Positions 30,866 to 62,951 of a stretch of 64,000 nucleotides of DNA are shown here, in pieces. The translations under genes were made by a program, and so were the position numbers. Source of the stretch: Enterobacter pseudoroggenkampii (GTDB lineage Bacteria > Pseudomonadota > Gammaproteobacteria > Enterobacterales > Enterobacteriaceae); assembly GCF_026420145.1 (NCBI RefSeq), contig NZ_JAPMLV010000009.1, forward strand, positions 1 through 64,000, given 5' to 3'. Every line of letters starts with the position of its first letter. Position 1 is the first letter of the stretch. Under the pieces are notes generated by a model. That model worked only from the letters and a program-made list of their open reading frames with translations. It searched no databases and was not told the DNA's origin.

Positions 30866-30893
30866 AAACCCGTCCCCGAAAATCCGGAACCGT

Positions 30894-44826: not shown

Positions 44827-45833
44827 TATTTGCGGTTGCCGGCTCGGGCAAGACCACGCTGCTGATACGACGGTTGAGTGAGGACCGGCGGACGCTGCTC
44901 CTGACCTTCACAGTGAATAATGAAGCGCATCTGCGGGCGCAGATTATCAGACGTTTTGGCTTTATCCCGGACGGGATCAGGGTGATGACCTGGTTTGAGT
45001 TTCTGCACGGTTTTTGCTTCCGGCCTTTCCTGCAGGAGCAGCTGGCATCGCGTGGCCTGAGCTTCGACCAGCCCCCACCCGGAATACCGCGCACGAATGC
45101 CCGGCATTATCAGGATCCCGCCGGACGGCTGTATCACCGGCGGCTCGCACACCTGCTGACAGCCCGGGGGCTGCTGCCGGATATCCGTACCCGGCTTGCC
45201 CGTTACTACGATGAACTGCTTGTCGATGAAGTCCAGGACTTTGCCGGACATGACTTTAATTTTCTGCTGGAGCTCTGCCGCGCGGAAATCACTGTGCTCT
45301 GTTGCGGCGATTTTTATCAGCATACCTTTGACACAAGCCATGACGGCAACGTTAATTCAACGCTGCACGATGACATTACGCGATATGAGGCCCGCTTCGA
45401 TGCAGCCGGTTTCACGGTTGACCGGGACACGCTCAACCGGACATGGCGTTGCTCGGCTTCAGTGTGCGAGTTTATCACCGGGCAGCTGAACATCCGTATC
45501 GCTGCCCATGGGACACATGCCACCCTGATTGAAACGATCGCAGATGCAGAGCGCGCTGCCACCCTGCACGCTGATAATACGGTGATTAAGCTCTTCTATC
45601 GTGAACATCACCGTTACGGCTGTTACTCGCTGAACTGGGGCGTCAGTAAAGGGCTCGACCACTTTCAGGATGTCTGCATTGTGATGGGACCCACACACTG
45701 GAAGCTTCTGAATCGTCAGGAACTGGCAGCCCTTCCGCCGTCGTCCCGTAACAGGCTGTACGTGGCATGCTCACGGGCGCGCGGCAACATTTATTTTGTC
45801 TCAGAAACTCATCTGCGCCGATTCAGGGTCTGA
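44811..45833 (+). CDS. Short UvrD-like helicase paired with the OLD nuclease
   Basis: 340 residues, shorter than the 490-500 residues of GajB. The Walker A motif AVAGSGKTT is at the very N-terminus, LLVDEVQDF is motif II, and NRLYVACSRARGNIYFV near the C-terminus is motif VI. GVSKGLDHFQDV resembles the motif V region (TAHKSKGLE type). The short length means that domains 1B and 2B are small or missing. The gene overlaps the OLD gene by 16 bases, so the two proteins should act together, probably in anti-phage defence. Confidence 0.82.
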   Translation: MDKRVIFAVAGSGKTTLLIRRLSEDRRTLLLTFTVNNEAHLRAQIIRRFGFIPDGIRVMTWFEFLHGFCFRPFLQEQLASRGLSFDQPPPGIPRTNARHYQDPAGRLYHRRLAHLLTARGLLPDIRTRLARYYDELLVDEVQDFAGHDFNFLLELCRAEITVLCCGDFYQHTFDTSHDGNVNSTLHDDITRYEARFDAAGFTVDRDTLNRTWRCSASVCEFITGQLNIRIAAHGTHATLIETIADAERAATLHADNTVIKLFYREHHRYGCYSLNWGVSKGLDHFQDVCIVMGPTHWKLLNRQELAALPPSSRNRLYVACSRARGNIYFVSETHLRRFRV

Positions 45834-45968
45834 ATCAGTTGATCCTCCATTGCGCAATATCCAGTAAAACAAGCTCTTCTTGGCCGCACACACCTGTATT
45901 TCGTTCAGATTCGGAAGGGATTTCATAAGCACTCCGGATGTAGTAGACAACGCCTGTTTCTGCGTGTA

Positions 45969-45987
45969 ATCTACCATCTAGTTGATT
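45969..45987. promoter_or_regulatory. Redox-regulon operator A (before osmC-like gene)
   Basis: ATCTACCATCTAGTTGATT, which differs at two positions from the site in front of the TetR gene at 46747. It lies 55 bases before the OsmC-family start. Confidence 0.7.
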
Positions 45988-46041
45988 GGTTGATTTTCAA
46001 TTAATCATTAATTAAATCCGCACTGTATCTCAGGAGTTAAA

Positions 46042-46599
46042 ATGACTGATTTAAAAAAACCTTTTGCTGACGCTAATGTTATTCGCGGTACACGAGAAGC
46101 TATTCGCCAGCATCCAGAACTGGGCAATCTCACCTTTAACATGAAGAGTAAATCCAACGGTGGAGTATCCGTCCGAGTGGAAACTCATGCGACTATCCAG
46201 AACGGCAAGGTTGATACCAGTCGCTCCGGAAAATTTGCTAATGTTGGCGATGAACCTGCTGATTTATCGGGTACTGATAGCGGTATGGGCCCAGCTGAAT
46301 ACATTTTGCAGGCACTTGCCGGTTGTTATACCGCGACTCTGACTGTGATGGCGGCAGAAAAGGGCATTGAACTTGATGGTATTGAACTTGACCTGAATTT
46401 CGACATTAATCTGAACGGTTTCCTGGGTCTTGACGAAAAAGTTCGCAATGGGGCGAAAGCGATCCGTGTTGGCGTTAAGCTCTCCAGTCCGACCGCCAGC
46501 CGTGAACAGCTTGAAGAAATGGTTCGTGCTCTCCCAGAAAGCTCGCCGATCCACGATACCCTGGCGAACCCGGTCAGTATTGATACCCGGTTGGTGTAG
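46042..46599 (+). CDS. OsmC-family peroxidase-like protein
   Basis: 185 residues. The OsmC fold is seen in GMGPAEYILQALAGCYTATL, which carries the second catalytic cysteine (Cys in AGCYTA). The first redox cysteine position is less clear and may be absent. OsmC/Ohr proteins reduce organic hydroperoxides or bind thiol adducts. The related alpha/beta hydrolase at 55.5 kb is fused to an OsmC domain in some other bacteria, so the two products may work together. Operator A lies upstream. Confidence 0.82.
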   Translation: MTDLKKPFADANVIRGTREAIRQHPELGNLTFNMKSKSNGGVSVRVETHATIQNGKVDTSRSGKFANVGDEPADLSGTDSGMGPAEYILQALAGCYTATLTVMAAEKGIELDGIELDLNFDINLNGFLGLDEKVRNGAKAIRVGVKLSSPTASREQLEEMVRALPESSPIHDTLANPVSIDTRLV

Positions 46600-46746
46600 G
46601 TAAAACTCAGAGAGGGAAATGCCTGAACACTGTCATTTCCCTACTGCCTGATGGCTATTAACTCCGACCAAAACGCGTTATCAGAGAAGGTTAAATTACT
46701 GTTGTGAACTGATGTCCCCTTGCAGGGAACAACAGGCGCAGATAAT

Positions 46747-46765
46747 ATCTACCAACTAGTAGATT
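46747..46765. promoter_or_regulatory. Redox-regulon operator B (before tetR)
   Basis: ATCTACCAACTAGTAGATT, a palindrome with arms ATCTAC/GTAGAT, 18 bases before the TetR start and overlapping its promoter. It is the best-conserved of five related sites and points to autoregulation. Confidence 0.75.
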
Positions 46766-46782
46766 ATAATTGTGAGGATTAT

Positions 46783-47352
46783 ATGTCAGTCATGACACGA
46801 GAAAGGCTTCTGAATGAAGCGGACCATCTGATGCGCGAACGGGGTTACTCTGCATTCAGCTATGCTGATTTGTCAAAGAGTATTGGTATCACTAAGGCCA
46901 GTATTCATCACCACTTCCCAACCAAAGACGTTTTGGGCGAACAAGTGGTGATTCAGGCCCATACCGATACCAAAAACCGATTTGAACAGATTGAAAAGAC
47001 GGAGAATACGGTTGCGCAGATGCTTACCGCTTACGTGGAGCTTTTCATCGAGAGCTATCGCACGTCGCGTATGCCGCTGTGCTGTGCTTTGTCTGCGGAA
47101 ATGGCCAATCTGCCACCGAATATCAGAGTTCAGGCGACCGAATATTTCGATATGCAGATTGCCTGGTTGACCAAAATTGTCAGCCGTGGCGTTGATGCAG
47201 GGGAACTGACTGCTGACTTGCCGCCATCAAAAATGGCGCTGCTTATTTTGAATTTATGCGAGGGCGCTAGCGTTGTTTCCCGGGCGATTAATAAGCCTGA
47301 GCTTTTCAACGATACGCTTGAACAGATCCTAATGATTGTTAAAAGAAAATAA
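46783..47352 (+). CDS. TetR-family regulator, probable master of the redox regulon
   Basis: 189 residues. The DNA-binding region is TRERLLNEADHLMRERGYSA...LSKSIGITKASIHHHFPTKD, like NemR, AcrR-type and similar sensors. Cysteines at SRMPLCCALSAEM lie in the ligand domain and could sense electrophiles, as in NemR. The start at 46783 is chosen because GAGG is upstream; the longer frame would cover the operator. The AhpD-like gene follows 16 bases later, so both are co-transcribed. Confidence 0.88.
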   Translation: MSVMTRERLLNEADHLMRERGYSAFSYADLSKSIGITKASIHHHFPTKDVLGEQVVIQAHTDTKNRFEQIEKTENTVAQMLTAYVELFIESYRTSRMPLCCALSAEMANLPPNIRVQATEYFDMQIAWLTKIVSRGVDAGELTADLPPSKMALLILNLCEGASVVSRAINKPELFNDTLEQILMIVKRK

Positions 47353-47368
47353 TTCTGGAGATGACCCC

Positions 47369-47707
47369 ATGTTAGATTGGAATGAATACCGCTCAGAAGT
47401 GATGCAACGTGTTGGTGATCTGGGTAAGCTGACCCCGGAAACGCTAAAAGGCGTCATGGCTTTGGGCAACGCCGGCAATAAGACCAACCTTCTGGGCGCG
47501 AAAGTGCGTGAACTGATTGCACTGGCTTGTGCGGTGACGACTCGCTGTGATGGTTGCATCGCCGTCCATGCCGAAGCTGCCGTTAAAGCTGGCGCCACAG
47601 AAGAAGAAATTGCTGAAGCCCTGGGTGTGGCGATCAACCTGAATGCAGGCGCTGCAGTTGTCTATTCAGCACGTACGCTGGATGCGATTAAGCAACTGAA
47701 AGCGTAA
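47369..47707 (+). CDS. AhpD/carboxymuconolactone-decarboxylase-family protein
   Basis: 112 residues. The CMD/AhpD motif is present: ALACAVTTRCDGCIAVHAEAAV with Cys-x2-Cys (CDGC) and the following His. Members reduce thiol or peroxide adducts using this Cys pair. GGAG lies eight bases before the ATG. It forms an operon with the TetR gene, and its terminator lies at 47731. Confidence 0.88.
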   Translation: MLDWNEYRSEVMQRVGDLGKLTPETLKGVMALGNAGNKTNLLGAKVRELIALACAVTTRCDGCIAVHAEAAVKAGATEEEIAEALGVAINLNAGAAVVYSARTLDAIKQLKA

Positions 47708-47730
47708 TAGTTATCGCGCTGAAAATATAA

Positions 47731-47752
47731 AAGGGCATGACTGCCCTTTTTT
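47731..47752 (+). terminator. Terminator after the tetR-ahpD-like operon
   Basis: GGGCA-TGAC-TGCCC followed by six T, 25 bases past the stop codon. Confidence 0.85.
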
Positions 47753-47837
47753 CACTTCTGACAGACATTGTCATCATGCTCTCTGGCATTAGGTCTGATA
47801 TGGCTTTCATTGCCCCTTTTCAGAACGAAAACAGACT

Positions 47838-48740
47838 TTATTTCTCGTTAAACACATTTCTCACCCATTCGGCCAAAGCCCGAACGCCCGGTCGGTTAAG
47901 GTTTTCTCGTGGCATAATGAGGTCATATCCTCGCCCGGCGGGTATTTCTATTTCAAAAGGGGCGACCAGTCGGCCCTCATCGAGGTAATGTCGAATGAGT
48001 CGTTTTCTGCCCATGATGATACCGCCGCCATTGAGTGCCGCTTCAATCGACATCTGACAATTGTTGAAGCTTAAAAAATTATCTTCAACGGGCAGGTTTT
48101 TGCCAGACTCCCTGCACCATTCTCGCCATTCTGAAAAAACATTCTGGGAGTCAACGGATTCAGAGGTATGAATGAACGGGACTTCAGCTAACCAATGGTT
48201 TGCTTGCCTGATTTTTTTTGCAAGAGATGGAATACAGACGGGAACCAGCATCTCTTCAGATAACCGTTCGCAGTAGAGATCGGGGTATTTCAGATTACTG
48301 TAGTAGATAGCGACATCTACCCGTTCAAGATTAAAATCTACCAGACCGGCCCTCACTCTGAAATTGATATTCAGCCCTGGCCACCGTTCGGTAAATACCG
48401 GTAAGCGCGGCATCAGCCAGAGAAAAGCGAAGGTAGGTGGAAGGCCGACAGACAAGGTTCCTCTCAACCCCTGCACGCGAATATCTTCTATTTCATCACT
48501 GATGCGTTTAAGTGAAAACGCGAGTACGCCAAGTAAACGCTCCCCTTCATCGGTCAACTGAAGTTTTCTGGTCATTCTGATAAACAGTCTGAATCCGAGC
48601 ATGGATTCAAGAGAACGAATGCGTTGGCTAACGGCCCCTTGCGTCAGATTGAGGGTTGTCGCCGCCTTAGTAAAGCTCATATGCAGTGCTGCCGTTTCAA
48701 ACGTATGCAATAGTGCCAGTATGTTCTGTTGAGCGAGCAT
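47838..48740 (-). CDS. LysR-family regulator (next to the GH4 gene)
   Basis: 300 residues. The N-terminal helix-turn-helix is LHMSFTKAATTLNLTQGAVSQRIRSLESMLGFRLF. The C-terminal domain is of the general GcvA/AmpR-like type. It is divergent from the phospho-glucosidase gene, and a 25-base palindrome between them (48767-48791) is its probable operator. Hence it is likely to control that gene and itself. Confidence 0.88.
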   Translation of the reverse strand: MLAQQNILALLHTFETAALHMSFTKAATTLNLTQGAVSQRIRSLESMLGFRLFIRMTRKLQLTDEGERLLGVLAFSLKRISDEIEDIRVQGLRGTLSVGLPPTFAFLWLMPRLPVFTERWPGLNINFRVRAGLVDFNLERVDVAIYYSNLKYPDLYCERLSEEMLVPVCIPSLAKKIRQANHWLAEVPFIHTSESVDSQNVFSEWREWCRESGKNLPVEDNFLSFNNCQMSIEAALNGGGIIMGRKRLIRHYLDEGRLVAPFEIEIPAGRGYDLIMPRENLNRPGVRALAEWVRNVFNEK

Positions 48741-48766
48741 TCATTATTTTCCTTCTTAATTTTTCT

Positions 48767-48791
48767 TATGCATTATTTACAGTAATGCATA
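48767..48791. promoter_or_regulatory. LysR-type operator (palindrome)
   Basis: TATGCATTA and TAATGCATA form perfect nine-base arms with a seven-base spacer, between the divergent LysR and GH4 genes. It contains the T-N11-A core expected for LysR sites. Confidence 0.75.
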
Positions 48792-48881
48792 CCCCGGAAT
48801 TGATCGTTTGTCCACTAAGCCCCTTGTCCTCTTTAATTGGCCCAACAGACGTCCTGACAACAACGATGAGGGGAATATCTA

Positions 48882-50201
48882 ATGAAGGGTCTTAAGTTAG
48901 TGGTTATTGGAGCGGGTTCAAGCTACACACCTGAACTGATGGAAGGCATTATCAAACGTCAAAATGAATTTCCGATCCGCGAGTTATGGCTGGTTGATAT
49001 TGAGGATGGCCGTGAAAAAATGGCGATCATTGCGGGCCTCACCCGACGGATGCTGGAAAAAAATGGGCTGGATATACCGGTTTATGAAACCCTTGACCGC
49101 ACAGAAGCACTGACCGGTGCCGATTTTGTTTGTTCTCAGTTCAGGGCCGGCTGCCTGGAAGCACGGATCAGCGACGAAAGGATATCGCTGAAATACGACA
49201 TGATCGGTCAGGAAACCAATGGGCTGGGTGGGTTTGCCAATGCATGCCGCACTATCCCGATTGCATTGGCTATAGCGAAAGAAATGGAACAACTGTGCCC
49301 GGATGCCTGGTTGCTGAACTTTACTAACCCGTCGGGAATGGTCACGGAAGCGATACTGAAATACAGCAAAGTCAAAACCGTAGGGCTGTGCAATGTGCCT
49401 GTTATCATGCAAAAAGGTATTGCCAGTGCTTTAGGTATCAGTGACATCAATGAATTTATCATGCAGGTCGCGGGACTTAATCACTTCATTTTTGCGCGCC
49501 ATATTTTTCATGAAGGTAAGGATAAGCTGCCTCAGGTTATTGAGCTGATTTCAGAGGGGAATGATCCGTTGGTGCCTAAAAATATTCCTCCTTTCAAATG
49601 GCCGGATCGGTTGTTGGCGAATATGGGAATGATACCTTGCCCCTACCTGCGTTATTACTACATGAGCGACGACATGTACCGTCAGGAGCTTGGCGAAGCA
49701 CAAGGGGAAGGGACTCGTGGTGAGATCGTAAAGGAGCTCGAAAGAGAACTATTCGAAATTTATCGAAACCCGGAACTCGCCGAGAAACCGAAAGCGCTGG
49801 AAGGTCGGGGAGGACAGTACTATTCGGATGCGGCATGTGAATTGATGAGCGCAATATATAACGACAAACGCATCATCATGCATGTCAATACGCGAAACGA
49901 TGGTGCGATTGCGGGCCTGCCGGATGACTGTGCGGTTGAGGTCAGTTCAATGATCACCCGTTCAGGACCTATGCCACTGAATGTCGAACCTTTCCCGGAA
50001 GATGTACTTCGTCTGATTCAACTGATGAAAAGCTTTGAGCAATTGACCATTGAGGCAGCCATCAGTGGTAATCGGTATACGGCATGGCGCGCCTTGGTTA
50101 TTAATCCCCTGGTCAAAAGCGGTCAACTGCTTGAAAATGCATTGGATGAAGTGATCGAACATAACAAAGCGTTGATGCCGGCCTTCCAGCGCAATAAATA
50201 A
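48882..50201 (+). CDS. Family 4 glycoside hydrolase (6-phospho-beta-glucosidase type)
   Basis: 439 residues. The NAD-binding N-terminus is LKLVVIGAGSSYTPELMEGII. The metal/catalytic region includes QETNGLGGFANACRTIPIAL, FTNPSGMVTEAIL, GLCNVPV and NHFIF, as in CelF/LicH-like GH4 enzymes that use NAD+ and Mn2+. They cleave phosphorylated disaccharides imported by a PTS. No dedicated PTS is adjacent; the one at 60-62 kb is Gat-type. A LysR regulator is divergent. Confidence 0.9.
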   Translation: MKGLKLVVIGAGSSYTPELMEGIIKRQNEFPIRELWLVDIEDGREKMAIIAGLTRRMLEKNGLDIPVYETLDRTEALTGADFVCSQFRAGCLEARISDERISLKYDMIGQETNGLGGFANACRTIPIALAIAKEMEQLCPDAWLLNFTNPSGMVTEAILKYSKVKTVGLCNVPVIMQKGIASALGISDINEFIMQVAGLNHFIFARHIFHEGKDKLPQVIELISEGNDPLVPKNIPPFKWPDRLLANMGMIPCPYLRYYYMSDDMYRQELGEAQGEGTRGEIVKELERELFEIYRNPELAEKPKALEGRGGQYYSDAACELMSAIYNDKRIIMHVNTRNDGAIAGLPDDCAVEVSSMITRSGPMPLNVEPFPEDVLRLIQLMKSFEQLTIEAAISGNRYTAWRALVINPLVKSGQLLENALDEVIEHNKALMPAFQRNK

Positions 50202-50301
50202 CGCTAAGCAGACTGGTCGGTTATTTTATAACAAAGCGGTTATCACTCTGAACGAGGGGGAACCGCTTGCCGATGATGCATCAGACCGCTAAGAGATAGA
50301 T

Positions 50302-50325
50302 AAAAAGGCATTACTGCCCTTTTTT
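50302..50325. terminator. Bidirectional hairpin at the end of the thioredoxin gene
   Basis: AAAAAGGCA-TTAC-TGCCCTTTTTT is a near-symmetric hairpin with T-runs on both strands. It overlaps the stop codon of the minus-strand thioredoxin gene and also lies 100 bases past the GH4 gene, so it can end both. Confidence 0.75.
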
Positions 50326-50643
50326 CAGCTCTGACAATGCTTGCTGATAAAACCCTGCCGATTTAACACCCGGTATACGCTGGACCAACTGCCCATCCTT
50401 GAACATCAGTACGGACGGCAGCCCCCAAATTTCATATTTGGTGGTCAGCACCGGTGCCAGATCCACATTCACTTTGCCGACTTTGACGTCGCTGTCAGTC
50501 TGCTCGGCAAAATGGTTAAAAATGTCTTCGCTCATCTGGCAAGGCGGACACCAGGGGGCAGAGAAGCGCACCACCGCAACCCCTTCATGCCTCTCGATTT
50601 CTCTAAAATTATCTTCATTGTAAAGGGCTAATTCACGCATCAT
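50311..50643 (-). CDS. Thioredoxin
   Basis: 110 residues with the active site WCPPC (in RFSAPWCPPCQMSEDIF) and the cis-Pro segment IWGLPSVLMF. The motif CPPC differs from the CGPC of Trx1/2 and implies a different redox potential. Cytoplasmic, no signal. Operator C lies just upstream on its own promoter. Confidence 0.9.
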   Translation of the reverse strand: MMRELALYNEDNFREIERHEGVAVVRFSAPWCPPCQMSEDIFNHFAEQTDSDVKVGKVNVDLAPVLTTKYEIWGLPSVLMFKDGQLVQRIPGVKSAGFYQQALSELKKGQ

Positions 50644-50672
50644 TCACTCCAGTACGTTGTAATTTGTGAACA

Positions 50673-50696
50673 ATTCTACCTACCAGTTGGTAGAAT
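50673..50696. promoter_or_regulatory. Redox-regulon operator C (before thioredoxin)
   Basis: A perfect palindrome with arms ATTCTACC/GGTAGAAT. Inside it is CTACCAGTTGGTAG, which matches CTACCA-N4-GTAG of operator B. It lies about 30 bases before the thioredoxin start. Confidence 0.7.
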
Positions 50697-50928
50697 TGAT
50701 TAACATAAAAAGCTATCATCAATTGAAAGGTACTTAAGCGAAGACAATGCCATGTTTTATCAATGGTTAAGCCTCATCTTATGTGGACGGCGTGCTGAGA
50801 ATTGTGATATTTCACTCCATCTGAATGAGAAAACTGACGTATTGTAAAATCGGGATTACTTTATAAAAAAGCAAGCCCATCCATAAAGTGTCGGCCTACA
50901 GGGCTGGCCTATTCCTTTTCGTAAGGCG

Positions 50929-51774
50929 ATGATGGAAAGAACATTATCCAGTCGTATTAATGTGGGGAGTACAGCGCATGTGCTGCATACGCAGCCCCTG
51001 ATGATGCGCCATATCACTATAGATGAACCCACAATCATCCTGGTCCGCCATGGCAGGAAAATAATCCGCTGGGCGCAAGAGGAGATAACGCTGGAAGCGG
51101 GTGACGCGGTGGTCATCGGGGAGGGGCACTCTTTTGATATCATCAATACACCATCACCTTTAACGGGTACGTACGAAGCATCATGGCTGAGTTTTTGTGC
51201 CGATTTCGTCCAAAACTACTGCTTCATGCATGCCCCACGTATGAGCATGCACGAAGCAAATAAAATGGCGGAGCCAGGCAACAGTTTTCGCCAGGCCTTT
51301 TATCACACTGCACAGGCCATTACAGATACTGAAAACATACCTGAAAGTATCGTGGCCAGGCGTATGGAAGAGATGCTGAGTTGGCTGGATGAATACCGCA
51401 TTTTCTTCGCGCTGAAACAACATACCGGACTGGCGATAAAAATCCGCAAACTCGTTGCAGCAGACATATCACAAGACTGGAATACTGCGCAGGTAGCGGC
51501 TGCATTTGGTATGTCGGCCACCACCCTGAGACGCCATCTGCATGCCGAAAATACGTCATTCACCCATCTGGTGACTGACATTCGCATGTGCCGCGCCCTG
51601 ACACTTTTGCAGGTGACAGATCTTTCAGTCACCCGCATATCCCTGGAAGTCGGCTATGAAAATCCGTCTAAGTTCGCCGCCAGATTTCGAACTCGCTTCG
51701 GATTCAGCCCCAGCCTGGTCCGGGTTTCCGGCCAGGCTATCGGCAACCTGGCTGCGGTTAGCGGCCCTGCGTAA
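50929..51774 (+). CDS. AraC-family transcriptional regulator
   Basis: 281 residues. The N-terminal sensing domain includes LMMRHITIDEPTIILVRHGR and a cupin-like LEAGDAVVIGEG. The C-terminal double helix-turn-helix is WNTAQVAAAFGMSATTLRRHL and RISLEVGYENPSKFAARFRTRFGFSPS. The adjacent convergent YbhB-like gene overlaps its end by 17 bases. Its target is not evident from the sequence. Confidence 0.88.
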   Translation: MMERTLSSRINVGSTAHVLHTQPLMMRHITIDEPTIILVRHGRKIIRWAQEEITLEAGDAVVIGEGHSFDIINTPSPLTGTYEASWLSFCADFVQNYCFMHAPRMSMHEANKMAEPGNSFRQAFYHTAQAITDTENIPESIVARRMEEMLSWLDEYRIFFALKQHTGLAIKIRKLVAADISQDWNTAQVAAAFGMSATTLRRHLHAENTSFTHLVTDIRMCRALTLLQVTDLSVTRISLEVGYENPSKFAARFRTRFGFSPSLVRVSGQAIGNLAAVSGPA

Positions 51775-52321
51775 TCTGAAGATGCGCTTCGCCCAGTGAG
51801 TTCGCTTTTGCCATAAAGCCGACCAGGGCGGGCGTCGAGTCCGCCGTTATTCCCGGAAGTTTGTCGACACGAAGTGCCGTCAGCGTGATCTCATAACGGT
51901 GCGTTTCACCCTTCGGCGGGCAAGGGCCGCCATAACCCGGGATACCGAAATCAGTCCTGGTCTGAAGAGCCCCTTGCGGGAGGTTTTTGTTATCCGCCGT
52001 TATCCCCGCCGGTAACGAATGAAGCGATGAGGGAATATTAACCACCTGCCAGTGGATCCAACCGAGGCCTGTCGGCGCGTCCCGATCATAGATTTTGAGA
52101 GCGAAGCTTTGGGTTCCTGCCGGCGCGCCACTCCAGTTAAAAGAGGGGGCAAGGTTTCCACCACTGCACCCAAATCCATAAGGTGAACTCAGGGTTTGAG
52201 CCACGGGGAAATGGTTTTTTTCAAGCTCATGACTTGTCAGCGTAAAACCGGCTGCAAAAGCGACCTGACTCGACAACGCCAGGCATAATGTACTGATAAC
52301 TGTAAGGTGATGTCTGGACAT
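51758..52321 (-). CDS. Exported YbhB/YbcL-type PEBP protein
   Basis: 187 residues with a signal peptide (MSRHHLTVISTLCLALSSQV then AFA) and the PEBP motifs FGCSGGNLAPSFNWSGAP, DRDAPTGLGWIHWQVVNIP and CPPKGETHRYEITLTAL. It belongs to the bacterial Raf-kinase-inhibitor-like group, here periplasmic as in E. coli YbcL. Its role is unknown, and it may bind small ligands. Confidence 0.88.
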   Translation of the reverse strand: MSRHHLTVISTLCLALSSQVAFAAGFTLTSHELEKNHFPVAQTLSSPYGFGCSGGNLAPSFNWSGAPAGTQSFALKIYDRDAPTGLGWIHWQVVNIPSSLHSLPAGITADNKNLPQGALQTRTDFGIPGYGGPCPPKGETHRYEITLTALRVDKLPGITADSTPALVGFMAKANSLGEAHLQITQGR

Positions 52322-52545
52322 TTACTCTTCTCCATAGGGGGGTGATTAATATCCGAATGATAAGAGGAGAGAAAGAGCCCGCGCCGCCCTGAACCGGCCA
52401 GTCTTAGCTCCATAACGCCCAAAAATGATATTTGTAATTCTCTGATTTCACAGGATGACGACCATCTCGCCGACGGCAGCTCACCTTACGCGGTATTCCC
52501 GGTGCCTGTCTGCTGTGACAAAAGAACAGCATGATTTGTTCTTTT

Positions 52546-52575
52546 ACCTATTGACCAATCAACTAGTAGGTAGGT
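52546..52575. promoter_or_regulatory. Redox-regulon operator D (before Old Yellow Enzyme)
   Basis: Contains CAACTAGTAGGTAGGT, sharing CAACTAGTAG with operator B, within outer arms ACCTA (52546-52550) and TAGGT (52567-52571). It lies about 120 bases before the oxidoreductase start. Confidence 0.65.
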
Positions 52576-52648
52576 ATAGTGCAACCATGCGCTTAACCGG
52601 CATCAGGTAGCGATCGTCAGCTCCCCGGCCCGCTAAGTATTAACTCCG

Positions 52649-52665
52649 GCCCCAGCGGGGCTTTT
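52649..52665 (+). terminator. Terminator-like hairpin in the Old Yellow Enzyme leader
   Basis: GCCCC-AGC-GGGGC followed by TTTTCTCTC lies between operator D and the start codon at 52692. It may attenuate transcription or end an upstream short transcript. The loop of three bases is tight. Confidence 0.45.
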
Positions 52666-52691
52666 CTCTCTTTCGCCTTGCGAGGTACATG

Positions 52692-53798
52692 ATGAGTAAG
52701 TTGTTCACCCCCTACAATCTGTCAGGCATGCAGTTAAAAAACCGCGTGGTCATGGCCCCGATGACCCGCACCCGCACAATGAACGACGTGCCGGATGACG
52801 TCGTTGCACTTTACTACGCCCAGCGCGCCTCTGCGGGGCTGCTTATCACCGAAGGCATGCCCGTTTCTGAAGAAGGGCGCGGCTATCTGTATACCCCGGG
52901 GATCTACAACGCTGCACACGTTCAGGGCTGGCGCAAAGTGACCGATGCGGTACATGCGAAGGGCGGCCGTATTTTTGCTCAGTTGTGGCATGTGGGCCGT
53001 ATGTCTCACGTCTCTCTTCAGCCAGGTCACATAGCGCCGGTTTCAGCGGGCACCGTTCAGGCGGTCAATACCACCGTTTTTGCGCTGACCGAATCCGGAG
53101 AACCGGGCCCGGTTGTACCAAGCCAGCCGCGCGCGCTGGAAACGCATGAAGTGAAACGCATCACGGCAGACTTCGTGCACTCCGCACGCCTGGCGATGGA
53201 GGCCGGTTTTGACGGCGTGGAAATCATGGCGGCGAACGGCTTCATTTTCGACCAGTTCCTCAGCAGTGAGCTGAACCCTCGCACTGATGAATACGGTGGC
53301 TCTGTGGAAAACCGTCAGCGGTTCCTGCTGGAAACGGTTGATGCCATCTCTGCGGCTATTGGTAGCAATAAGGTGGGCTTGCGCATTTCACCGTTCGGGC
53401 GGATTTACGACCTGGCGCCATATGAAGGTGAAGAAGAGATTTGGGCCAGTATCGCAGCGGCTCTCGGCCAGCGTCAGCTGGCTTATGTACATCTCTATTA
53501 TCAGCCTGTTTATACCCAGGCACCGGTTCCTGCCGGGTTCAAAGCCGCGTTCCGTAAAACTCTGGGGGGCACGGTTATTGCCGCCGGCGGCTTCACCCGC
53601 GAGATTGCCGAAACGGCACTTGAGGCAGACGAACTGGATCTTGTCGCGTTTGGCGTGCCGTACATCGCCAACCCTGATCTGGTCGAAAGAATGCAGAACG
53701 GCTGGCCGCTGGCCGAAAGCGATCGCACGACGTATTACGGCGTGACGGGGTCACCAGAGAAAGGCTACACCGATTATCCCGCCTGGAAAGCCAACTAA
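52692..53798 (+). CDS. Old Yellow Enzyme family alkene reductase (NemA-like)
   Basis: 368 residues. Motifs of the OYE family are VVMAPMTRTRTMNDVP, QLWHVGRMSHVSLQPG, the active-site segment AANGFIFDQFLSSELNPRTDEYGGSVENR and the FMN-phosphate loop TVIAAGGF. The enzyme uses FMN and NAD(P)H to reduce alpha,beta-unsaturated carbonyls, N-ethylmaleimide and related electrophiles. It starts the plus-strand group OYE-DsbA-SDR-hydrolase behind operator D. The second ATG of a tandem pair is preferred by spacing from GAGG. The usual His-Asn (or His-His) pair was not located: the family segment around DGVEIMAANGF is offset from the standard HGAHGYL and has no His. Confidence 0.88.
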   Translation: MSKLFTPYNLSGMQLKNRVVMAPMTRTRTMNDVPDDVVALYYAQRASAGLLITEGMPVSEEGRGYLYTPGIYNAAHVQGWRKVTDAVHAKGGRIFAQLWHVGRMSHVSLQPGHIAPVSAGTVQAVNTTVFALTESGEPGPVVPSQPRALETHEVKRITADFVHSARLAMEAGFDGVEIMAANGFIFDQFLSSELNPRTDEYGGSVENRQRFLLETVDAISAAIGSNKVGLRISPFGRIYDLAPYEGEEEIWASIAAALGQRQLAYVHLYYQPVYTQAPVPAGFKAAFRKTLGGTVIAAGGFTREIAETALEADELDLVAFGVPYIANPDLVERMQNGWPLAESDRTTYYGVTGSPEKGYTDYPAWKAN

Positions 53799-53879
53799 CG
53801 CCACGAAGCCGGTGGTATTTGCGGTGCCCACATAAACAGGCACCGCCAGACGAAATTAATAGGGTATTCAGGAGCCAAT

Positions 53880-54581
53880 ATGCAAACCCTTAAGCCGATT
53901 ATTACGATAGATATCTGGTCAGATCTGGTCTGCCCCTGGTGCTGGATTGCCAAAAAGCGTTTCGAACAGGGCCTTGCCGCCTTTGAACACAAGGAACAGG
54001 TCGTGGTCCGCCACCACAGTTTCCGTATTTCCGGCGACCGGCCTGCCGTGCCGTTCCGCAAAGCCCTTTACAAGAAGTTTGGCGGGGAACATGGGGCGGA
54101 ACTGATGATGAATCAGGTGGGCACGGCCGGGAAGACAGAAGGGCTCCAGTATAACTTTGACACCATGCTTTTTGGCGATACCGAAGATGCCCATACGCTG
54201 CTCGCGGCTGCGCGTCACGCCAATATGGGCGACGCCATGGCAGAACGGTTTTATCGGGCCAGTGTGACTGAGGGGCGTTCCATTTTCGATCCGCTGGAGC
54301 TCATTGCGTTAGCTACAGAAGTGGGCATGTCCAGAGCCGACGCTGTAAGTGCCCTTGCCAATGAGGCCTTCCGTGCATCGGTGGCCGAAGATGAAGCCCA
54401 TGCCCGGTCGATCGGGGTCAGCGGGGTCCCGCTGTTCCTGCTCAATGAAAAATATGCTATCAGCGGCGCGCAATCTGCGGACAACTTCCTGAACGTGTTG
54501 AAGCAAGTCTGGGAAGAAAAAGCGGCTGAACTGGCAAAAACTGACGGCCAGACCTGCGGCGCTGACGGTTGCAGCATCTGA
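53880..54581 (+). CDS. DsbA/FrnE-family oxidoreductase
   Basis: 233 residues. The active site CPWC is in [20 protein letters not shown], and the C-terminal [16 protein letters not shown] contains the cis-Pro loop. No signal peptide, so it is a cytoplasmic FrnE-like protein that handles oxidised or adducted thiols. A Cys-rich tail (TCGADGCSI) is an additional possible metal or redox site. It is in one plus-strand run with the OYE and SDR genes. Confidence 0.9.
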
Positions 54582-54643
54582 CACCTGAACGAGCCGGCTG
54601 CATGACTGCCGGCAAATCTACCCTGCAAATAACGGAGTTCAAA

Positions 54644-55417
54644 ATGAGCGATTATTTTAAAGGCAAAAAACTGCTTGTCGTGGGTGGCACCAGCGGTATG
54701 GGTCTGGAAACGGCGCGTATGGTGCTGAAAGCCGGTGGCAGCGTGGTACTGACGGGCAATAAAAAAGACAAGGCAGAAGCGGTTCAGAAAGAGCTGAGCC
54801 CACTGGGTTCCGTGTCCGTGATTGCGGCAAACCTGATGACTGAAGAGGGCATGAACGCCATTCGTCAGGAGATTAATGCTAATCATCGCGATATTAGCCT
54901 GATGGTCAATGCGGCCGGGATCTTCATGCCGAAAGGCTTTACCGAGCATTTGGAAGCCGATTACGACATGTACCTGATGTTGAACCGGGCAACCTTCTTC
55001 ATCACGCAGGACGTGGTGAAGAACATGCTGGCCGACGGCCGTGAAGGGGCGATTGTGAACGTGGGCTCCATTGGCGCGCAAGCCGCACTCGGCGACTCAC
55101 CGGCTTCCGCGTACTCCATGGCCAAAGCCGGTCTCCACGCCTTGACACGCAACCTGGCCATTGAGCTGGCCAGTGCGGGTATCCGCGTGAACGCGGTCTC
55201 GCCAGGGATCGTGCATACCCCGATTTATGAAGGCTTCATGGCGAAAGAAGACATTGCCAGCGCAATGCAATCGCTGAACGCTTTCCATCCGCTGGGGCGT
55301 GTCGGCACGCCGGAAGATGTGGCCAATACCATCTTCTTCCTGTTGTCCGACAAAGCCTCCTGGGTGACTGGCGCAATCTGGGATGTCGATGCCGGTATCA
55401 TGGCCGTTCGCAGATAA
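54644..55417 (+). CDS. Short-chain dehydrogenase/reductase
   Basis: 257 residues. The cofactor motif GGTSGMGLE ([16 protein letters not shown]), the NAAG segment and the catalytic Tyr-x3-Lys (YSMAKAG) are all in place, and Ser is in VNVGSIGAQ. The substrate is unknown; in this setting it may reduce aldehydes or ketones derived from electrophiles. GGAG precedes the ATG. Strong hairpin after the stop. Confidence 0.9.
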
Positions 55418-55427
55418 GCTCGTCGTA

Positions 55428-55464
55428 ACCTATCAGCCGCCCCATGATGGGGCGACTGATAGGT
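55428..55464. terminator. Strong hairpin between SDR and hydrolase genes
   Basis: ACCTATCAG pairs with CTGATAGGT and, inside, GCCCC with GGGGC. No T-run follows, so it may be an RNA-stability or protein-binding element more than a classical terminator. Confidence 0.5.
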
Positions 55465-55502
55465 ATCTTGCTTGTAATTCAACCATTCTGAAAGTTAACA
55501 TA

Positions 55503-56255
55503 ATGAAAAAATTGAAATTTACCTTCAAAAATGCAGAAGGTGAGGAACTTGCCGGGTTGCTTGAATTGCCAGAAAATCCAAAAGCCTTTGCCCTGTTGGC
55601 GCACTGCTTTACCTGCGGGAAGGATCTGAAAGGTGCTGCACGCATTGCCAGGAAACTGACAGAAAATTCAATTGCGGTGCTTCGCTTTGATTTTACCGGG
55701 TTAGGCAACAGCGAAGGCGATTTTTCCAATACCAATTTTTCCTCGAATATTTCTGACCTGCTGTGCGCGGTCGATTATCTTCGTCGGGAATACGAGGCTC
55801 CTTCGCTGCTGATTGGTCACAGCCTTGGCGGTTCGGCAATCCTCTCTATTGCAGCCAAAGTGCCTGAAGCCAGAGCGGTCGTAACCATAGGTTCGCCAGG
55901 CGAATTGACGCATGTACAGCGGTTGTTCAAAGACAATATCGAAGATATCAGGAACCATGGCGCTTTCCCGGTAGAGCTTGCAGGCCGGGTATTCACGCTC
56001 AAAAAGCAAATGCTGGATAACATTCAGGAGCATAAAATAGCGGAGAAGGTATTTACCATGAATAAGCCGCTGCTGATTTTTCATGCTCCCAATGATGATA
56101 CCGTGCTGATTGAACAGGCAGAGAAAATTTTTAAAGCCGCCAGACACCCCAAAAGCTTTATCTCACTGGGTGAAGCAGATCATCTTCTGACGCATCCTCA
56201 GGATGCGGAATATGTTGCCGGGATTATCGTTGCCTGGAGTTCTGCTTACATTTAG
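55503..56255 (+). CDS. Alpha/beta hydrolase, N-terminal half of the hydrolase-OsmC type
   Basis: 250 residues, with the nucleophile motif GHSLGGSAI and the oxyanion region AHCFTCGKDLKGAARIARKL. In several bacteria an equivalent protein is fused to an OsmC domain; here it stands alone and an OsmC protein is encoded at 46.0 kb. Cysteines flank the oxyanion region (AHCFTCG). It probably acts on acyl or thiol adducts in the same pathway. Confidence 0.85.
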   Translation: MKKLKFTFKNAEGEELAGLLELPENPKAFALLAHCFTCGKDLKGAARIARKLTENSIAVLRFDFTGLGNSEGDFSNTNFSSNISDLLCAVDYLRREYEAPSLLIGHSLGGSAILSIAAKVPEARAVVTIGSPGELTHVQRLFKDNIEDIRNHGAFPVELAGRVFTLKKQMLDNIQEHKIAEKVFTMNKPLLIFHAPNDDTVLIEQAEKIFKAARHPKSFISLGEADHLLTHPQDAEYVAGIIVAWSSAYI

Positions 56256-56364
56256 AGGGCGTGTAAAGCTTCGTGAAGCTGCAGGTGCTGTCGTTGGCCA
56301 CTGAATAAACGGGCGTAGCATTTTGGTTGCACATACAAGACTGCGTAGCATGCTTTCTTTACGC

Positions 56365-56392
56365 GAAAAAAGCCCTGCTTAGATGCAGGGCT
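56365..56392 (-). terminator. Terminator after the thioredoxin-family gene
   Basis: AGCCCTGC/GCAGGGCT stem with a six-base loop, and six T on the minus strand, about 110 bases after the stop of the gene at 56500-56994. Confidence 0.75.
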
Positions 56393-56499
56393 AAGGGCAT
56401 TGTTGCTATGGTTTATTTTTATTATTTCCCTGGCATTGCTCAACTTCCAGGTTTATTACCTTCAGGTTGAGATTCAATTAATTTAACTTTAACGCTCTC

Positions 56500-56994
56500 T
56501 TATTTTCCTGGAAAAATTGAAGCCACTTCGCGGGCAGTATCGACCAGAAGTTCACCGTTTTTGTAGCTCTCGCTCACTTCTCCGTTCTTGCCGATAGCGG
56601 TTTTAGGCCGTTCAATAAACTGCCCCAGCGGAGTCACGTTCTCATCCAGTACCACGGCAAACGGAATTTTGACTTTATCGACACCAAAGTGTGCTTTAAA
56701 GACGTCTTCGGCCTTGTCGCGGGTGATAATACCCAGACGTATTGCCGGCGTTGACGCGGCAATGGCATGGATTACAGGCAAGTTTTTATGGCAGTCGGGG
56801 CACCACATTTCAGCAGCTACCAGAATGCTGTACGAACCCGGAAGTTGCGAGAGCTTACTGATGACATCGTCAGGTAATGCCTCGTTGGCAAGCCCCTCAA
56901 AATGCCGCAATGCGTTGCGGTCTTCTTCTGCTCCGCTGCCAACAAATTCGTTATAATCTGATGCTGCTTCGAGCAGTACGTTGAAATCTTGCAT
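56500..56994 (-). CDS. Thioredoxin-family protein with CPDC motif
   Basis: 164 residues with the redox motif MWCPDCHKNLPVIHAIAAST and the downstream KIPFAVVLDENV strand. No signal peptide. It is similar to bacillithiol/thioredoxin-family proteins (DUF1128/YtpP-like set) that reduce adducted protein thiols, but the exact group is not clear. Divergent from the EamA gene, with operator E between them. Confidence 0.8.
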   Translation of the reverse strand: MQDFNVLLEAASDYNEFVGSGAEEDRNALRHFEGLANEALPDDVISKLSQLPGSYSILVAAEMWCPDCHKNLPVIHAIAASTPAIRLGIITRDKAEDVFKAHFGVDKVKIPFAVVLDENVTPLGQFIERPKTAIGKNGEVSESYKNGELLVDTAREVASIFPGK

Positions 56995-57127
56995 ATGTTC
57001 TCCTTTGTTAGTAACGGGTCTACGGCTTTACATAAATCTGGCAATGATAAAGGTCAATGCTCCAGGCATGACCTGAAAAGGCGTACCATTTTAGTCTGGC
57101 TGCCATAAGTAGATATTGCCATCCTAC

Positions 57128-57143
57128 CTACTAATTGATAGAT
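57128..57143. promoter_or_regulatory. Redox-regulon operator E (between thioredoxin-family and EamA genes)
   Basis: CTACTAATTGATAGAT, sharing 12 of 16 bases with the core of operator B. It lies between two divergent genes and could serve both. It is the weakest of the five sites. Confidence 0.5.
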
Positions 57144-57179
57144 TATCACGTAATTTGTTAATTTTGAGGCGTCACGCTG

Positions 57180-58028
57180 ATGGGGCGGTCTGTTGGATTC
57201 AAGATAGTGATAGCAATGATGGCATTCGCAGCCAATTCTGTGCTCTGTCGGATTGCGTTGAAAGGCGAACATATTGATCCGGTGACGTTCAGTGACCTTC
57301 GCCTGATGAGCGGGGCGGTGGTCTTGTTACCACTGTTGTTGAGACGTGAGGGGAAAAAGCAGGGCATCTGGAGCTTGAAAAGCGGGTTCTTTCTTATGGC
57401 CTACGCCCTGTGTTTCTCCCTTGCCTATATCCATTTGGATACAGGAACAGGTGCTTTGCTCTTGTTTGGCGTTGTGCAACTGGCGATGGTGGCCCATGGC
57501 CTTTTCCATGGGGAAAGGCTGTCTTTTTCCAGAGCAACGGGGCTTGGGCTGGCTGTAGCCGGCATGGCTGCTCTTCTCTTACCTGGTGCCAAAGCGCCCC
57601 CCTTGGGCAGCGCTGTTCTGATGGCGCTTTCAGGCCTTGCCTGGGCGGCTTATACCCTCTGCGGAAAGCGCTCTCCTGATGCTGCGCAGGCAACTGCGGC
57701 AAACTTCATCCTTGCTGTACCTTTTGCCCTGGTGTTGTCGCCGTTCATTAGCCAGGGAGCGCACTTCGACGGTATCGGAATTGTCCTGGCAATACTCTCT
57801 GGTGCCGGTGCTTCTGCCGGAGCCTATGTACTCTGGTATTCACTTTTACCTCGTCTTGAGTCTGTTGCAGCCAGTACGGTTCAGTTGAGTGTGCCCTGTC
57901 TGGCGATGCTGGGAGGCGTAACATTTTTGGGCGAGTCACTGAGCCTCAGAATGGCTTTTTCAACCCTGGCAGTTCTTGCAGGCATTCTGTTGGTGATCAA
58001 GGCTCCGGGTCAGAAAATACGGCACTGA
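57180..58028 (+). CDS. EamA/DMT-family exporter
   Basis: 282 residues with about ten hydrophobic helices in two EamA repeats, beginning VGFKIVIAMMAFAANSVLCR and ending FSTLAVLAGILLVIKAP. Such transporters export metabolites or drugs, driven by the proton gradient. It is transcribed divergently from the thioredoxin-family gene over operator E. Likely substrate: a small product of the redox pathway. Confidence 0.88.
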   Translation: MGRSVGFKIVIAMMAFAANSVLCRIALKGEHIDPVTFSDLRLMSGAVVLLPLLLRREGKKQGIWSLKSGFFLMAYALCFSLAYIHLDTGTGALLLFGVVQLAMVAHGLFHGERLSFSRATGLGLAVAGMAALLLPGAKAPPLGSAVLMALSGLAWAAYTLCGKRSPDAAQATAANFILAVPFALVLSPFISQGAHFDGIGIVLAILSGAGASAGAYVLWYSLLPRLESVAASTVQLSVPCLAMLGGVTFLGESLSLRMAFSTLAVLAGILLVIKAPGQKIRH

Positions 58029-58159
58029 TATTAACGTGCCAGTCATGACTTGATCACTCTGCAAATGGTTTTTTAGGTTTTAAAGCAATGGAATATCTAA
58101 TTGTTAGCAAAAGTCAGTGGCGCTGTAACCTCATTGGATAAACTAACCGGGTAACCTCT

Positions 58160-59395
58160 ATGAAATACGATTTTGATGAAGTAGTGGACAGGACTGGAAC
58201 AGATAGCTTAACCGTCGACGGCTGGCGCGAATATATGTTCGGTGACCATGAAAGTCCCGTGCCGGAAGTACCGGCCACTGGTTTTATAAACCTCTGGGTA
58301 GCAGACATGGCTTTTTCCACCCCCGAGCCGGTGCTTGAAGCCATACGTTCCCGGTTAGATAAAAAAATTCTTGGCTACACCCGCGTTTATGACAGGGACT
58401 ACTATGAGATTTTTGGGGCCTGGTGTGAAAGGAATTACGGATACCGGTTTCAGGAAGAAAGCATTGTTTTCTCCCCCGGTATTATCCCTGCACTTAACCG
58501 ATTGGTGCCGTTACTCACCCACGAAGAAGATAGCATCCTCATCCTGACCCCTTCTTACGCACCGTTTAAAAAAGCCGGAGACTATAGCGGTCGTCGCGTC
58601 GTCGATTGCCCGCTTAGAAATAACGAAGGCCACTGGGCGGTAGATTTTGAGGCAATGGAACAAGCCCTGAGCGATGACCAGCAGCGAATTAAAGCCTTCT
58701 TTCTCTGTAACCCGCATAATCCCACCGGACGTGTCTGGCGACGTGATGAGTTGCAGAAAATGATAACGTTATGCCTTAAACATGATGTGTGGGTTATTTC
58801 TGATGAAATACACTGTGATTTATCCCGCTCGGGCGTCACGCATATTCCCGCCGCGTCAGTCTTTCCTGAAAATCATAAAATTATCACCTGCATGTCGACC
58901 AGCAAGACGTTCAACCTGGCGGGTAATCTGCTGGCAAATATCATGATCCCTGATGCCTCAGTGAGAGCAGAATGGCTTCGCCTGCATGATGATTTTATCT
59001 CACCGTTGAGTCTGGTGGCTAACAAGGCCGCCTGGTCCGAGTGCGATGAGTGGTTGACTCAGCTCAGGCTCTACATTGACGAGAATTTCCGTTTTCTACA
59101 GGACTATCTGAGGACATATCATCCGCTGGCCCGTTTTATCATTCCGGAAGGGACCTATCTGGCATGGATTGATATCTCTCCTCTGCTGGATGTCAGTAAT
59201 CAGGAAGAAGTAACCCTCTTTTTTGCCAGACATGCGGGTGTATTGCTTGAAGGGGGACAAATGTTTGTCAGTAACGGAGACGGGTACATACGTCTTAATC
59301 TGGCTTGTCCACGCGCCGTGCTTGCCGAAGGGCTTAGCCGCATAAGCAACGCATTGAGTGCCAGTTCTACCGGAACCATAGCCGCAACAATGTAG
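58160..59395 (+). CDS. PatB/MalY-type cystathionine beta-lyase (PLP aminotransferase fold)
   Basis: 411 residues. The PLP-binding Lys is in STSKTFNLAGN, and FFLCNPHNPTGRVWRRDEL and ISDEIHCDLSRSG are the conserved active-site segments. PatB/MalY enzymes cleave C-S bonds of cystathionine or Cys conjugates. In the context of electrophile handling it may also break down cysteine S-conjugates. No own regulator is adjacent. Confidence 0.9.
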   Translation: MKYDFDEVVDRTGTDSLTVDGWREYMFGDHESPVPEVPATGFINLWVADMAFSTPEPVLEAIRSRLDKKILGYTRVYDRDYYEIFGAWCERNYGYRFQEESIVFSPGIIPALNRLVPLLTHEEDSILILTPSYAPFKKAGDYSGRRVVDCPLRNNEGHWAVDFEAMEQALSDDQQRIKAFFLCNPHNPTGRVWRRDELQKMITLCLKHDVWVISDEIHCDLSRSGVTHIPAASVFPENHKIITCMSTSKTFNLAGNLLANIMIPDASVRAEWLRLHDDFISPLSLVANKAAWSECDEWLTQLRLYIDENFRFLQDYLRTYHPLARFIIPEGTYLAWIDISPLLDVSNQEEVTLFFARHAGVLLEGGQMFVSNGDGYIRLNLACPRAVLAEGLSRISNALSASSTGTIAATM

Positions 59396-59628: not shown

Positions 59629-60150
59629 TCACTCAATATCGGCGTGCCGTTCCTTCATTGTCTCATTCGTTTCATTAAGATTGGCCATTAATGCCAGAAC
59701 CATACTGTCATAGGTCAGCAGGGAAGCCTGTTCGAAGAGAGAGGCCATCGGTTGAACGCTATGGACTGCCGGGATAGTGAGCACGTAATCCGCCAGGGTC
59801 GCCAGAGTTGAATCTGGTGAGGTAGTGATGAGCGCAATATAAACGCCATTATTCTTAGCAATTTTCACCTGGTTGATCAGGCGTTGGGTCTCTCCGGAGC
59901 CTGAACCAACGATCATCAGGTCGTTTTTGCGGGAATGTGGAGCGCTGATTTCCCCGACCACACTGACGGACAGGCCAAGATGCATCAGCCGGTTAGCAAA
60001 AGCGTTTATCATTTGCCCTGAACGTCCAGCACCGGCAAGAAATACATGACCGGCAGTAATAATAGAATCAACAAGTGTGCTAAATTCTTTCTCATCGATT
60101 TTATCCACAAGTGAAGATAACTCTTTCAAAACGAGGGAGTACTTTTTCAT
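59629..60150 (-). CDS. SIS-domain protein, 6-phospho-3-hexuloisomerase-like
   Basis: 173 residues from the ATG at 60150. SIS-domain motifs are HVFLAGAGRSGQMINAFANRL and LMIVGSGSGETQ, followed by AKNNGVYIALITTSPDSTLA. Length and motifs fit HxlB/PHI, which interconverts 3-hexulose-6-phosphate and fructose-6-phosphate. No 3-hexulose-6-phosphate synthase (HxlA) is present. Last gene of the minus-strand sugar operon. Confidence 0.82.
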   Translation of the reverse strand: MKKYSLVLKELSSLVDKIDEKEFSTLVDSIITAGHVFLAGAGRSGQMINAFANRLMHLGLSVSVVGEISAPHSRKNDLMIVGSGSGETQRLINQVKIAKNNGVYIALITTSPDSTLATLADYVLTIPAVHSVQPMASLFEQASLLTYDSMVLALMANLNETNETMKERHADIE

Positions 60151-60204
60151 TATGGTCATTCTTTTATTGAAAAAGGCAGACAGGGTATATCTGCCTTTTG
60201 TTTA

Positions 60205-60956: not shown

Positions 60957-60977
60957 TTTCAGGTACCTTCTGAGGTT

Positions 60978-62348: not shown

Positions 62349-62351
62349 TTT

Positions 62352-62888: not shown

Positions 62889-62951
62889 CTCAAACAACCT
62901 GTCATTAAGAACTTAAGCCAAGTATGATGTTGGTATATATTGGTTGTCAAC

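Follow-up and report, generated by a model that had tools for sequence, protein, structure and literature searches.

What is the cluster of redox genes that surrounds a TetR-type repressor gene in this stretch of Enterobacter pseudoroggenkampii DNA (contig NZ_JAPMLV010000009.1, positions 1 to 64,000; the whole 64,000-nucleotide stretch is called the window here), and what does its regulator respond to? A sequence-only reading had seen five related sites in front of genes between positions 45,969 and 57,143, and had taken them for the operators of a thiol and electrophile stress regulon. We find that the cluster has a homologue in Pantoea ananatis, the alt (allicin/thiosulfinate tolerance) cluster, a kind of regulon that has already been published, and that it is alt-like in the wording used in the accessible text of a 2025 paper (PMC12306174). 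In our judgement, the locus is very probably a thiosulfinate tolerance cluster of the alt type, carried by a plasmid of Klebsiella/Enterobacter type, with the repressor AltR acting at five operators and being released by thiosulfinates. Clusters of the alt kind are known from onion-rotting bacteria and are thought to protect cells from the sulfur poisons that onion and garlic contain. The homology ties a redox cluster borne on plasmids of Klebsiella, Enterobacter and E. coli to a worked-out plant-defence tolerance system, and thereby makes the likely inducers, thiosulfinates, directly testable.

Homologues of ten alt proteins of P. ananatis PNA 97-1R, our reference locus (L008), are present in the window at 51-90% identity: OsmC, AltR, the carboxymuconolactone decarboxylase-family protein (CMD), thioredoxin, Old Yellow Enzyme (OYE), DsbA, SDR, a second thioredoxin-family protein, EamA and PatB. 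The window TetR protein matches PF00440 (TetR_N, E 5.8e-11) and has cysteines 100, 101 and 159 at the same positions as the PNA 97-1R AltR. In P. ananatis, according to the accessible part of PMC13178969, AltR represses the alt gene set and the box before altR is required, so that mutating this site abolishes repression; Cys100 is needed, and Cys101 and Cys159 tune the response; and AltR is released by allicin and dimethyl thiosulfinate, but not by N-ethylmaleimide (NEM), diamide, H2O2 or disulfides. The two clusters thus share ten gene types, the box and the three cysteines, as well as an operator between the divergent thioredoxin-family gene and EamA, but gene order differs, and only the window has a hydrolase added and LysR-GH4 and AraC-PEBP genes interleaved. 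Such interleaving of other transcription units had already been noticed, and none of the LysR/GH4, AraC and PEBP units has a counterpart in the Pantoea cluster. The genes are as follows.

46042 to 46599, plus strand: OsmC-family protein (Pfam OsmC; 65% identical to the P. ananatis alt OsmC)
46783 to 47352, plus strand: TetR-family repressor, AltR orthologue (TetR_N; 62-64% identical to PNA 97-1R AltR)
47369 to 47707, plus strand: AhpD-like carboxymuconolactone decarboxylase-family protein (Pfam CMD; 82% identical to the P. ananatis alt homologue), beginning 17 bp after altR
47838 to 50201: LysR regulator (minus strand) and GH4 6-phospho-beta-glucosidase (plus strand), interleaved, not alt genes
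50311 to 50640, minus strand: thioredoxin (Pfam Thioredoxin; 69% identical to the P. ananatis alt thioredoxin)
50929 to 52321: AraC-family regulator (plus strand) and PEBP/YbhB-like protein (minus strand), interleaved, not in the P. ananatis cluster
52692 to 53798, plus strand: Old Yellow Enzyme/alkene reductase, of NemA type (Pfam Oxidored_FMN; 82% identical to the P. ananatis alt homologue)
53880 to 54581, plus strand: DsbA-family (FrnE-like) oxidoreductase (Pfam DSBA; 72% identical to the P. ananatis alt homologue)
54644 to 55417, plus strand: SDR oxidoreductase (90% identical to the P. ananatis alt homologue)
55503 to 56255, plus strand: alpha/beta hydrolase (also in L002, L003, L022 and the Vibrio furnissii cluster L023; not in PNA 97-1R)
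56500 to 56994, minus strand: second thioredoxin-family protein (Pfam Thioredoxin_9; 51% identical to the P. ananatis alt homologue)
57180 to 58028, plus strand: EamA/DMT-family transporter (68% identical to the P. ananatis alt homologue)
58160 to 59395, plus strand: PatB-type C-S lyase (66%; an alt member in P. ananatis), beyond the range covered by the sequence-only reading

The gene set therefore probably extends past 57143 to the PatB-type C-S lyase. Another relative of the window cluster lies on plasmid pEcWSU1_A of Enterobacter ludwigii EcWSU1, which is collinear with it over 12 kb at 90.6% DNA identity and has the same five sites, but differs in its flanking DNA; this locus is called a homologous alt cluster in the accessible text of PMC7988079. 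The allicin-resistance regions of Pseudomonas fluorescens PfAR-1, as far as they are described in the portion of PMC7119367 at hand, share osmC, sdr, tetR, dsbA, trx, ahpD and oye with the window, and their conserved sets likewise hold dmt and cystathionine beta-lyase genes; they differ in having kefF, kefC and 4-ot, and their TetR is 39% identical.

A scan of the window with the pattern CTACCWACTAGTWGRT, allowing up to three mismatches on both strands, gave ten strand matches at five places (45971, 46749, 50676, 52556 and 57124). Shuffled sequence gave a mean of 1.12 matches and at most 5, and none of 100 dinucleotide shuffles reached 10. These places lie, as had been claimed, before OsmC, TetR, thioredoxin, the OYE group and the thioredoxin-family/EamA pair, all five are intergenic, and they match both the AltR box published in 2026 and the joint consensus given in what is accessible of PMC13178969. 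Measured from site centre to gene start, the distances are 64 bp (OsmC), 27 bp (TetR), 39-43 bp (thioredoxin), 122-126 bp (OYE), 45-49 bp (EamA) and 136-140 bp (the divergent thioredoxin-family gene).

45967 to 45992, plus strand: AltR-type operator before OsmC, fitting the published joint consensus YWAYCWAC[N6]GTWGRTWR without a mismatch
46745 to 46768, plus strand: AltR-type operator before altR, with an ATCTAC[CAACTA]GTAGAT core like the published AltR box, overlapping TATAAT
50672 to 50697, minus strand: AltR-type operator before thioredoxin, from the pattern and consensus scans
52552 to 52577, plus strand: AltR-type operator before OYE, between TTGACC and TATAGT
57120 to 57145, no strand given: AltR-type operator common to the divergent thioredoxin-family gene and EamA, from the pattern scans

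The EamA operator overlaps a TTGCCA-17-TAGATT pair, and the placing of the OYE, EamA and altR operators over or between promoter elements is what a polymerase-blocking repressor would require. The OsmC-upstream operator is also present in L002, L012, L008, L010, L004, L009 and L005, and the divergent thioredoxin-family/EamA arrangement with its operator in L008, L010 and L004. Site bases were better conserved than the rest of the intergenic stretches, both against E. ludwigii pEcWSU1_A (115 of 128 kept, versus 807 of 1076; p=5e-5) and against K. pneumoniae pK55602_1 (119 of 128, versus 896 of 1084; p=0.001).

The sequence-only reading had proposed a motif scan of plasmid and genome. When YWACCWACTAGTWGRTWR was used to scan G001, a 4.6-Mb genome carrying the cluster, the cluster's five places were the only ones at up to one mismatch, with two further places at two mismatches; at up to three, 56 strand matches compared with 90 for the reversed pattern, which is background. 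The five sites are likewise the only places at up to two mismatches on the K. pneumoniae plasmid NZ_CP055006.1. Together with the shuffle control, the G001 scan rules out a chance origin. Five similar sequences within 11 kb could in principle be copies of a mobile or structural repeat without regulatory role, but we give this next to no probability: the similarity among the five is limited to about 26 bp, no copies occur elsewhere in G001 at up to one mismatch, and, in the P. ananatis experiments, mutation of the altR site cost repression. In addition, the sites precede the same genes in clusters whose gene order is different, and they stand upstream of TetR relatives from other phyla; these two recurrences and the G001 scan rule the repeat out.

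The 2026 AltR paper, in its accessible text (PMC13178969), describes a second repeat in P. ananatis, IR2, of the form TTACCAAC[N6]GTTGGTAA, and its authors leave open whether AltR binds it. Our comparison gives grounds on the question of whether AltR box and IR2 are one operator. Scanning the joint consensus over twelve loci, we found that the 'N6' spacer is hardly free, being in the left register nearly always CWACTA, CATCTA or CWACCA. Most sites, four of the window's five among them, can be aligned to the consensus at up to three mismatches in two registers 4 bp apart, placed symmetrically around a CTAG-like centre; the window altR site fits in one register only. The OsmC site shows the mixing of cores: AltR-box core ATCTAC with IR2 core GTTGGT in E. 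ludwigii, ATCTAC with the mixed core GTTGAT in the window, and two AltR-box cores in the orthologous Pantoea site. From these alignments, the published AltR box and IR2 look like variants or registers of one CTAG-centred operator, approximately CTACCWACTAGTWGGTAG. The alternative would be two regulons, with AltR using only sites of the AltR-box type and some other factor, for example the interleaved AraC or LysR, using those of the IR2 type. The question left open by the authors and the AraC and LysR genes inside the window locus would suit it, but both site types occur in the P. ananatis cluster, which lacks AraC and LysR genes, the two cores stand together in the E. ludwigii OsmC site, and the CTAG-centred operator recurs upstream of distant TetR relatives, which together make two regulons quite improbable. 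A literature search on the palindrome's letters returned nothing relevant.

The clusters differ in how thioredoxin and OYE are served. One site lies between divergent thioredoxin and OYE genes in L004, L005, L008, L009 and L010 (Pantoea, Erwinia and Tn3-linked; OYE is not in the annotation table of L004), and so serves both in the PNA 97-1R cluster, whereas in window-type clusters the AraC-PEBP genes stand between the two and each has a site of its own, as selection to keep both genes in the regulon would give.

Does the regulator belong with NemR, as its sensor cysteine and its OYE target might suggest? NemR-NemA of Escherichia coli is likewise a TetR repressor with an aligned sensor cysteine and an OYE target, but NemR is only 22% identical to the window TetR, and its recognition helix (VPKGSFYHYF, against ITKASIHHHF in AltR) and operator are different. 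The AltR Cys100 column, which corresponds to NemR Cys106, is invariant in five aligned sequences including K-12 NemR. Upstream of K-12 nemR lies a TAGACC...GGTCTA repeat and no AltR-type site, and none of 20 nemR loci, all from one genus, has an AltR-type operator upstream at up to two mismatches, which bears out the earlier remark that the site is unlike the NemR box. Operator and recognition helix rule out membership of NemR for the window TetR.

A related possibility is that the same sites and genes form a general electrophile and bleach regulon of NemR-like kind, with reactive chlorine, quinones, NEM or methylglyoxal as natural triggers. The aligned cysteine and the NemA-type OYE fit it, as does the frequent origin of carriers from clinical or sewage isolates rather than from Allium. 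Against it stand NemR's distance and other helix, and the failure of Pantoea AltR to respond to NEM, diamide and H2O2 in the accessible results of PMC13178969, although the compounds covered there do not include hypochlorite, quinones or methylglyoxal. We consider such a regulon unlikely, and the general thiol or electrophile trigger of the sequence-only reading doubtful, since the Pantoea protein answered thiosulfinates. The rest of that proposal, that one TetR-type sensor with five operators governs roughly a dozen redox genes on a plasmid, is supported by orthology and the comparative data.

By analogy with P. ananatis, we infer that the window protein binds and represses at its five sites and is released by thiosulfinates, and thiosulfinates would by the same analogy be the trigger in Klebsiella and Enterobacter. 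AltR would bind the CTAG-centred operator at five promoters and block transcription; a thiosulfinate such as allicin would modify Cys100 and so release AltR from the DNA. This would allow expression of OsmC, AltR-AhpD, thioredoxin, OYE-DsbA-SDR-hydrolase, the second thioredoxin, EamA and, probably, PatB. These proteins would resolve mixed disulfides, reduce or degrade adducts and export the resulting products, a division of labour that we infer for the cluster's enzymes. Carriers may meet Allium compounds from the diet or in sewage.

Several observations weigh against an alt-type, AltR-controlled cluster. The gor gene of the PNA 97-1R cluster is not seen in the window cluster, and the PatB-type gene, unlike that of PNA 97-1R, is not preceded by a separate site within 58029-58159 at up to three mismatches. 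Sigma-70-like promoter pairs are not enriched in the region (13, versus 14.9 in shuffles). In L007, a relative of 41-43% identity, neither the tetR nor the osmC gene is preceded by a site. Similar clusters may also be without a tolerance phenotype, as stated in the accessible text of PMC12306174.

How widely is the cluster spread? The same accessible text already describes K. pneumoniae as a prevalent carrier of such alt-like clusters, and their presence in Klebsiella is therefore not new. A megablast search of 45800-58100 against PLSDB returned 544 records with some match, 34 of them holding at least 80% of the stretch; the matches listed are from Klebsiella and Enterobacter, and K. pneumoniae plasmid NZ_CP055006.1 is 99.9% identical over the stretch. 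AltR itself was found at 95% identity or more in 36 of 72,556 PLSDB records and relatives at 60-80% in 502, with many clinical Klebsiella among the matches listed. The four members of the commoner type that we opened (L005, L006, L011 and L013) hold OsmC-AltR-CMD-thioredoxin, with OYE, DsbA and SDR annotated to varying extent. A recombinase gene lies beside OsmC in L005, L006 and L011, a Tn3 transposase is present in L005 and L006, and L005 adjoins arsenic genes; a literature search found no paper on this arsenic/Tn3-linked version. Among 5,426 complete E. coli genomes, 131 match OsmC-AltR-CMD, 121 of them over at least 80% of its length, and 109 of the 133 places are on plasmids.

What makes the cluster worth following is its single shared operator and the reach of that operator beyond alt, which could serve as a search motif for a wider sensor clade. 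From an alignment of eight AltR proteins, with stretches like YSAFSYAD or KASIHHHF required, we kept the best 80 of the relatives listed (33-99% identity), giving 79 loci. Between -300 and +20 of the TetR start, YACCWACTAGTWGGTR occurred at up to two mismatches in 39 of these 79 loci, at up to three in 49, and not at all in 30, as against a mean of 0.08 (maximum 3) and of 0.98 (maximum 20), respectively, for 200 palindromes with a shuffled half-site. Operator-bearing loci include Methylobacterium, Rhizobium, Hyphomicrobium, two cyanobacteria, Actinokineospora and one planctomycete, and 34 of the 39 hold at most one of nine alt proteins, although some contigs are short. The CTAG symmetry of the aligned sites was largely built in by the search pattern; only an added position, -9, and a motif-free dyad count are free of that. 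In this count, over 47 dereplicated 200-bp upstream stretches from 76 more distant loci (related loci remain among them), TAC N6 GTA ranked first, in 24 of 47 against 1.1 expected; among the next were ACC N8 GGT (22, 2.3 expected) and TAC N10 GTA (18, 1.1 expected). Cys100 is present in 79 of the 80 aligned proteins, Cys101 in 5 and Cys159 in 4. Operator and Cys100 together reach TetR proteins of 33-45% identity, most of them at loci that lack alt genes; their hosts are Proteobacteria, two cyanobacteria, one actinobacterium and one planctomycete.

The 20 Pseudomonas loci count against a simple picture of autoregulation: in none of them is tetR directly preceded by a site at up to three mismatches; 18 of the 20 carry a site at up to two mismatches elsewhere in the locus. 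In the comparison with PfAR-1, L054 and L080 likewise have no site at up to three mismatches directly before tetR. Of 27 reading frames beside chosen distant members, six were without a Pfam match, and the neighbours include CMD, OsmC, SDR, EamA, DJ-1, metallo-beta-lactamase, SoxYZ, glutathione S-transferase, a ChrR-like cupin, glyoxalase-like proteins, FAD oxidoreductases, a PNPOx-like protein, a methyltransferase and CobW; redox or electrophile functions are frequent among them but do not account for all. We lean towards regarding AltR as one branch of a widespread TetR clade, with Cys100, a KASIHHHF-type recognition helix and one operator across phyla, whose members would control different thiol or electrophile gene sets, with an operator from which these regulons could be read in DNA alone and with AltR box and IR2 as its overlapping dimer registers. 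The sets would be alt on plasmids and in plant-associated bacteria, metallo-beta-lactamase with SoxYZ in Hyphomicrobium, and OsmC, DJ-1, SDR and others elsewhere. In the Hyphomicrobium locus (L028, 8992-11973), an AltR-clade TetR gene with an upstream operator lies beside genes for a metallo-beta-lactamase, a SoxY-SoxZ fusion and a CMD protein, which hints at a sulfur-oxidation regulon.

Single motif matches are not evidence of such a regulator: among 198 genomes of the family, 44 have a match at up to one mismatch and about 52 match the reversed control pattern, versus 3 with AltR (E<=1e-30). Of these genomes, G001 and G021 alone have five clustered sites at up to one mismatch, and both belong to the three that encode AltR. 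Nine regions picked by eye from the motif matches for strong palindromes or paired sites, neither blind nor with a random-region control, include six with an AltR relative of 27-43% identity and three with none; the relative is within about 350 bp of the site in five of the six, and about 2 kb away in L127. An E. coli search with L125 found nothing, and phages gave no AltR match. On pKPN-QL24 (L134, 4702-7912), a TetR gene whose product is 27.6% identical to AltR stands in a YdgH-like/TetR/DUF417/CMD/DM13 set adjoining iutA; this locus of aerobactin-type plasmids has no AltR-type site at up to three mismatches.

Within and around the window cluster, the LysR-GH4 pair may be a later insertion, as it is missing from the otherwise collinear Raoultella terrigena copy L022. 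The cluster's LysR gene is interrupted by an IS91-family element on NZ_CP055006.1 (L001, 14039-16771). Further away, a thiamine-pyrophosphate enzyme gene adjoins a PNPOx/FAD/2Fe-2S oxidoreductase gene at 29014-32906, with no AltR-type site upstream at up to two mismatches. Directly upstream of the cluster, 43264-45833 holds two anti-phage genes that form a pair of Gabija type, GajA (PADLOC E 1e-101) and GajB (E 1e-46). Downstream, at 59629-62897, lie an SIS-domain (HxlB-like) gene and a phosphotransferase system (PTS) EIIC-GAT permease gene, and a sugar-PTS operon is annotated beside the cluster in pEcWSU1_A and pK55602_1 too.

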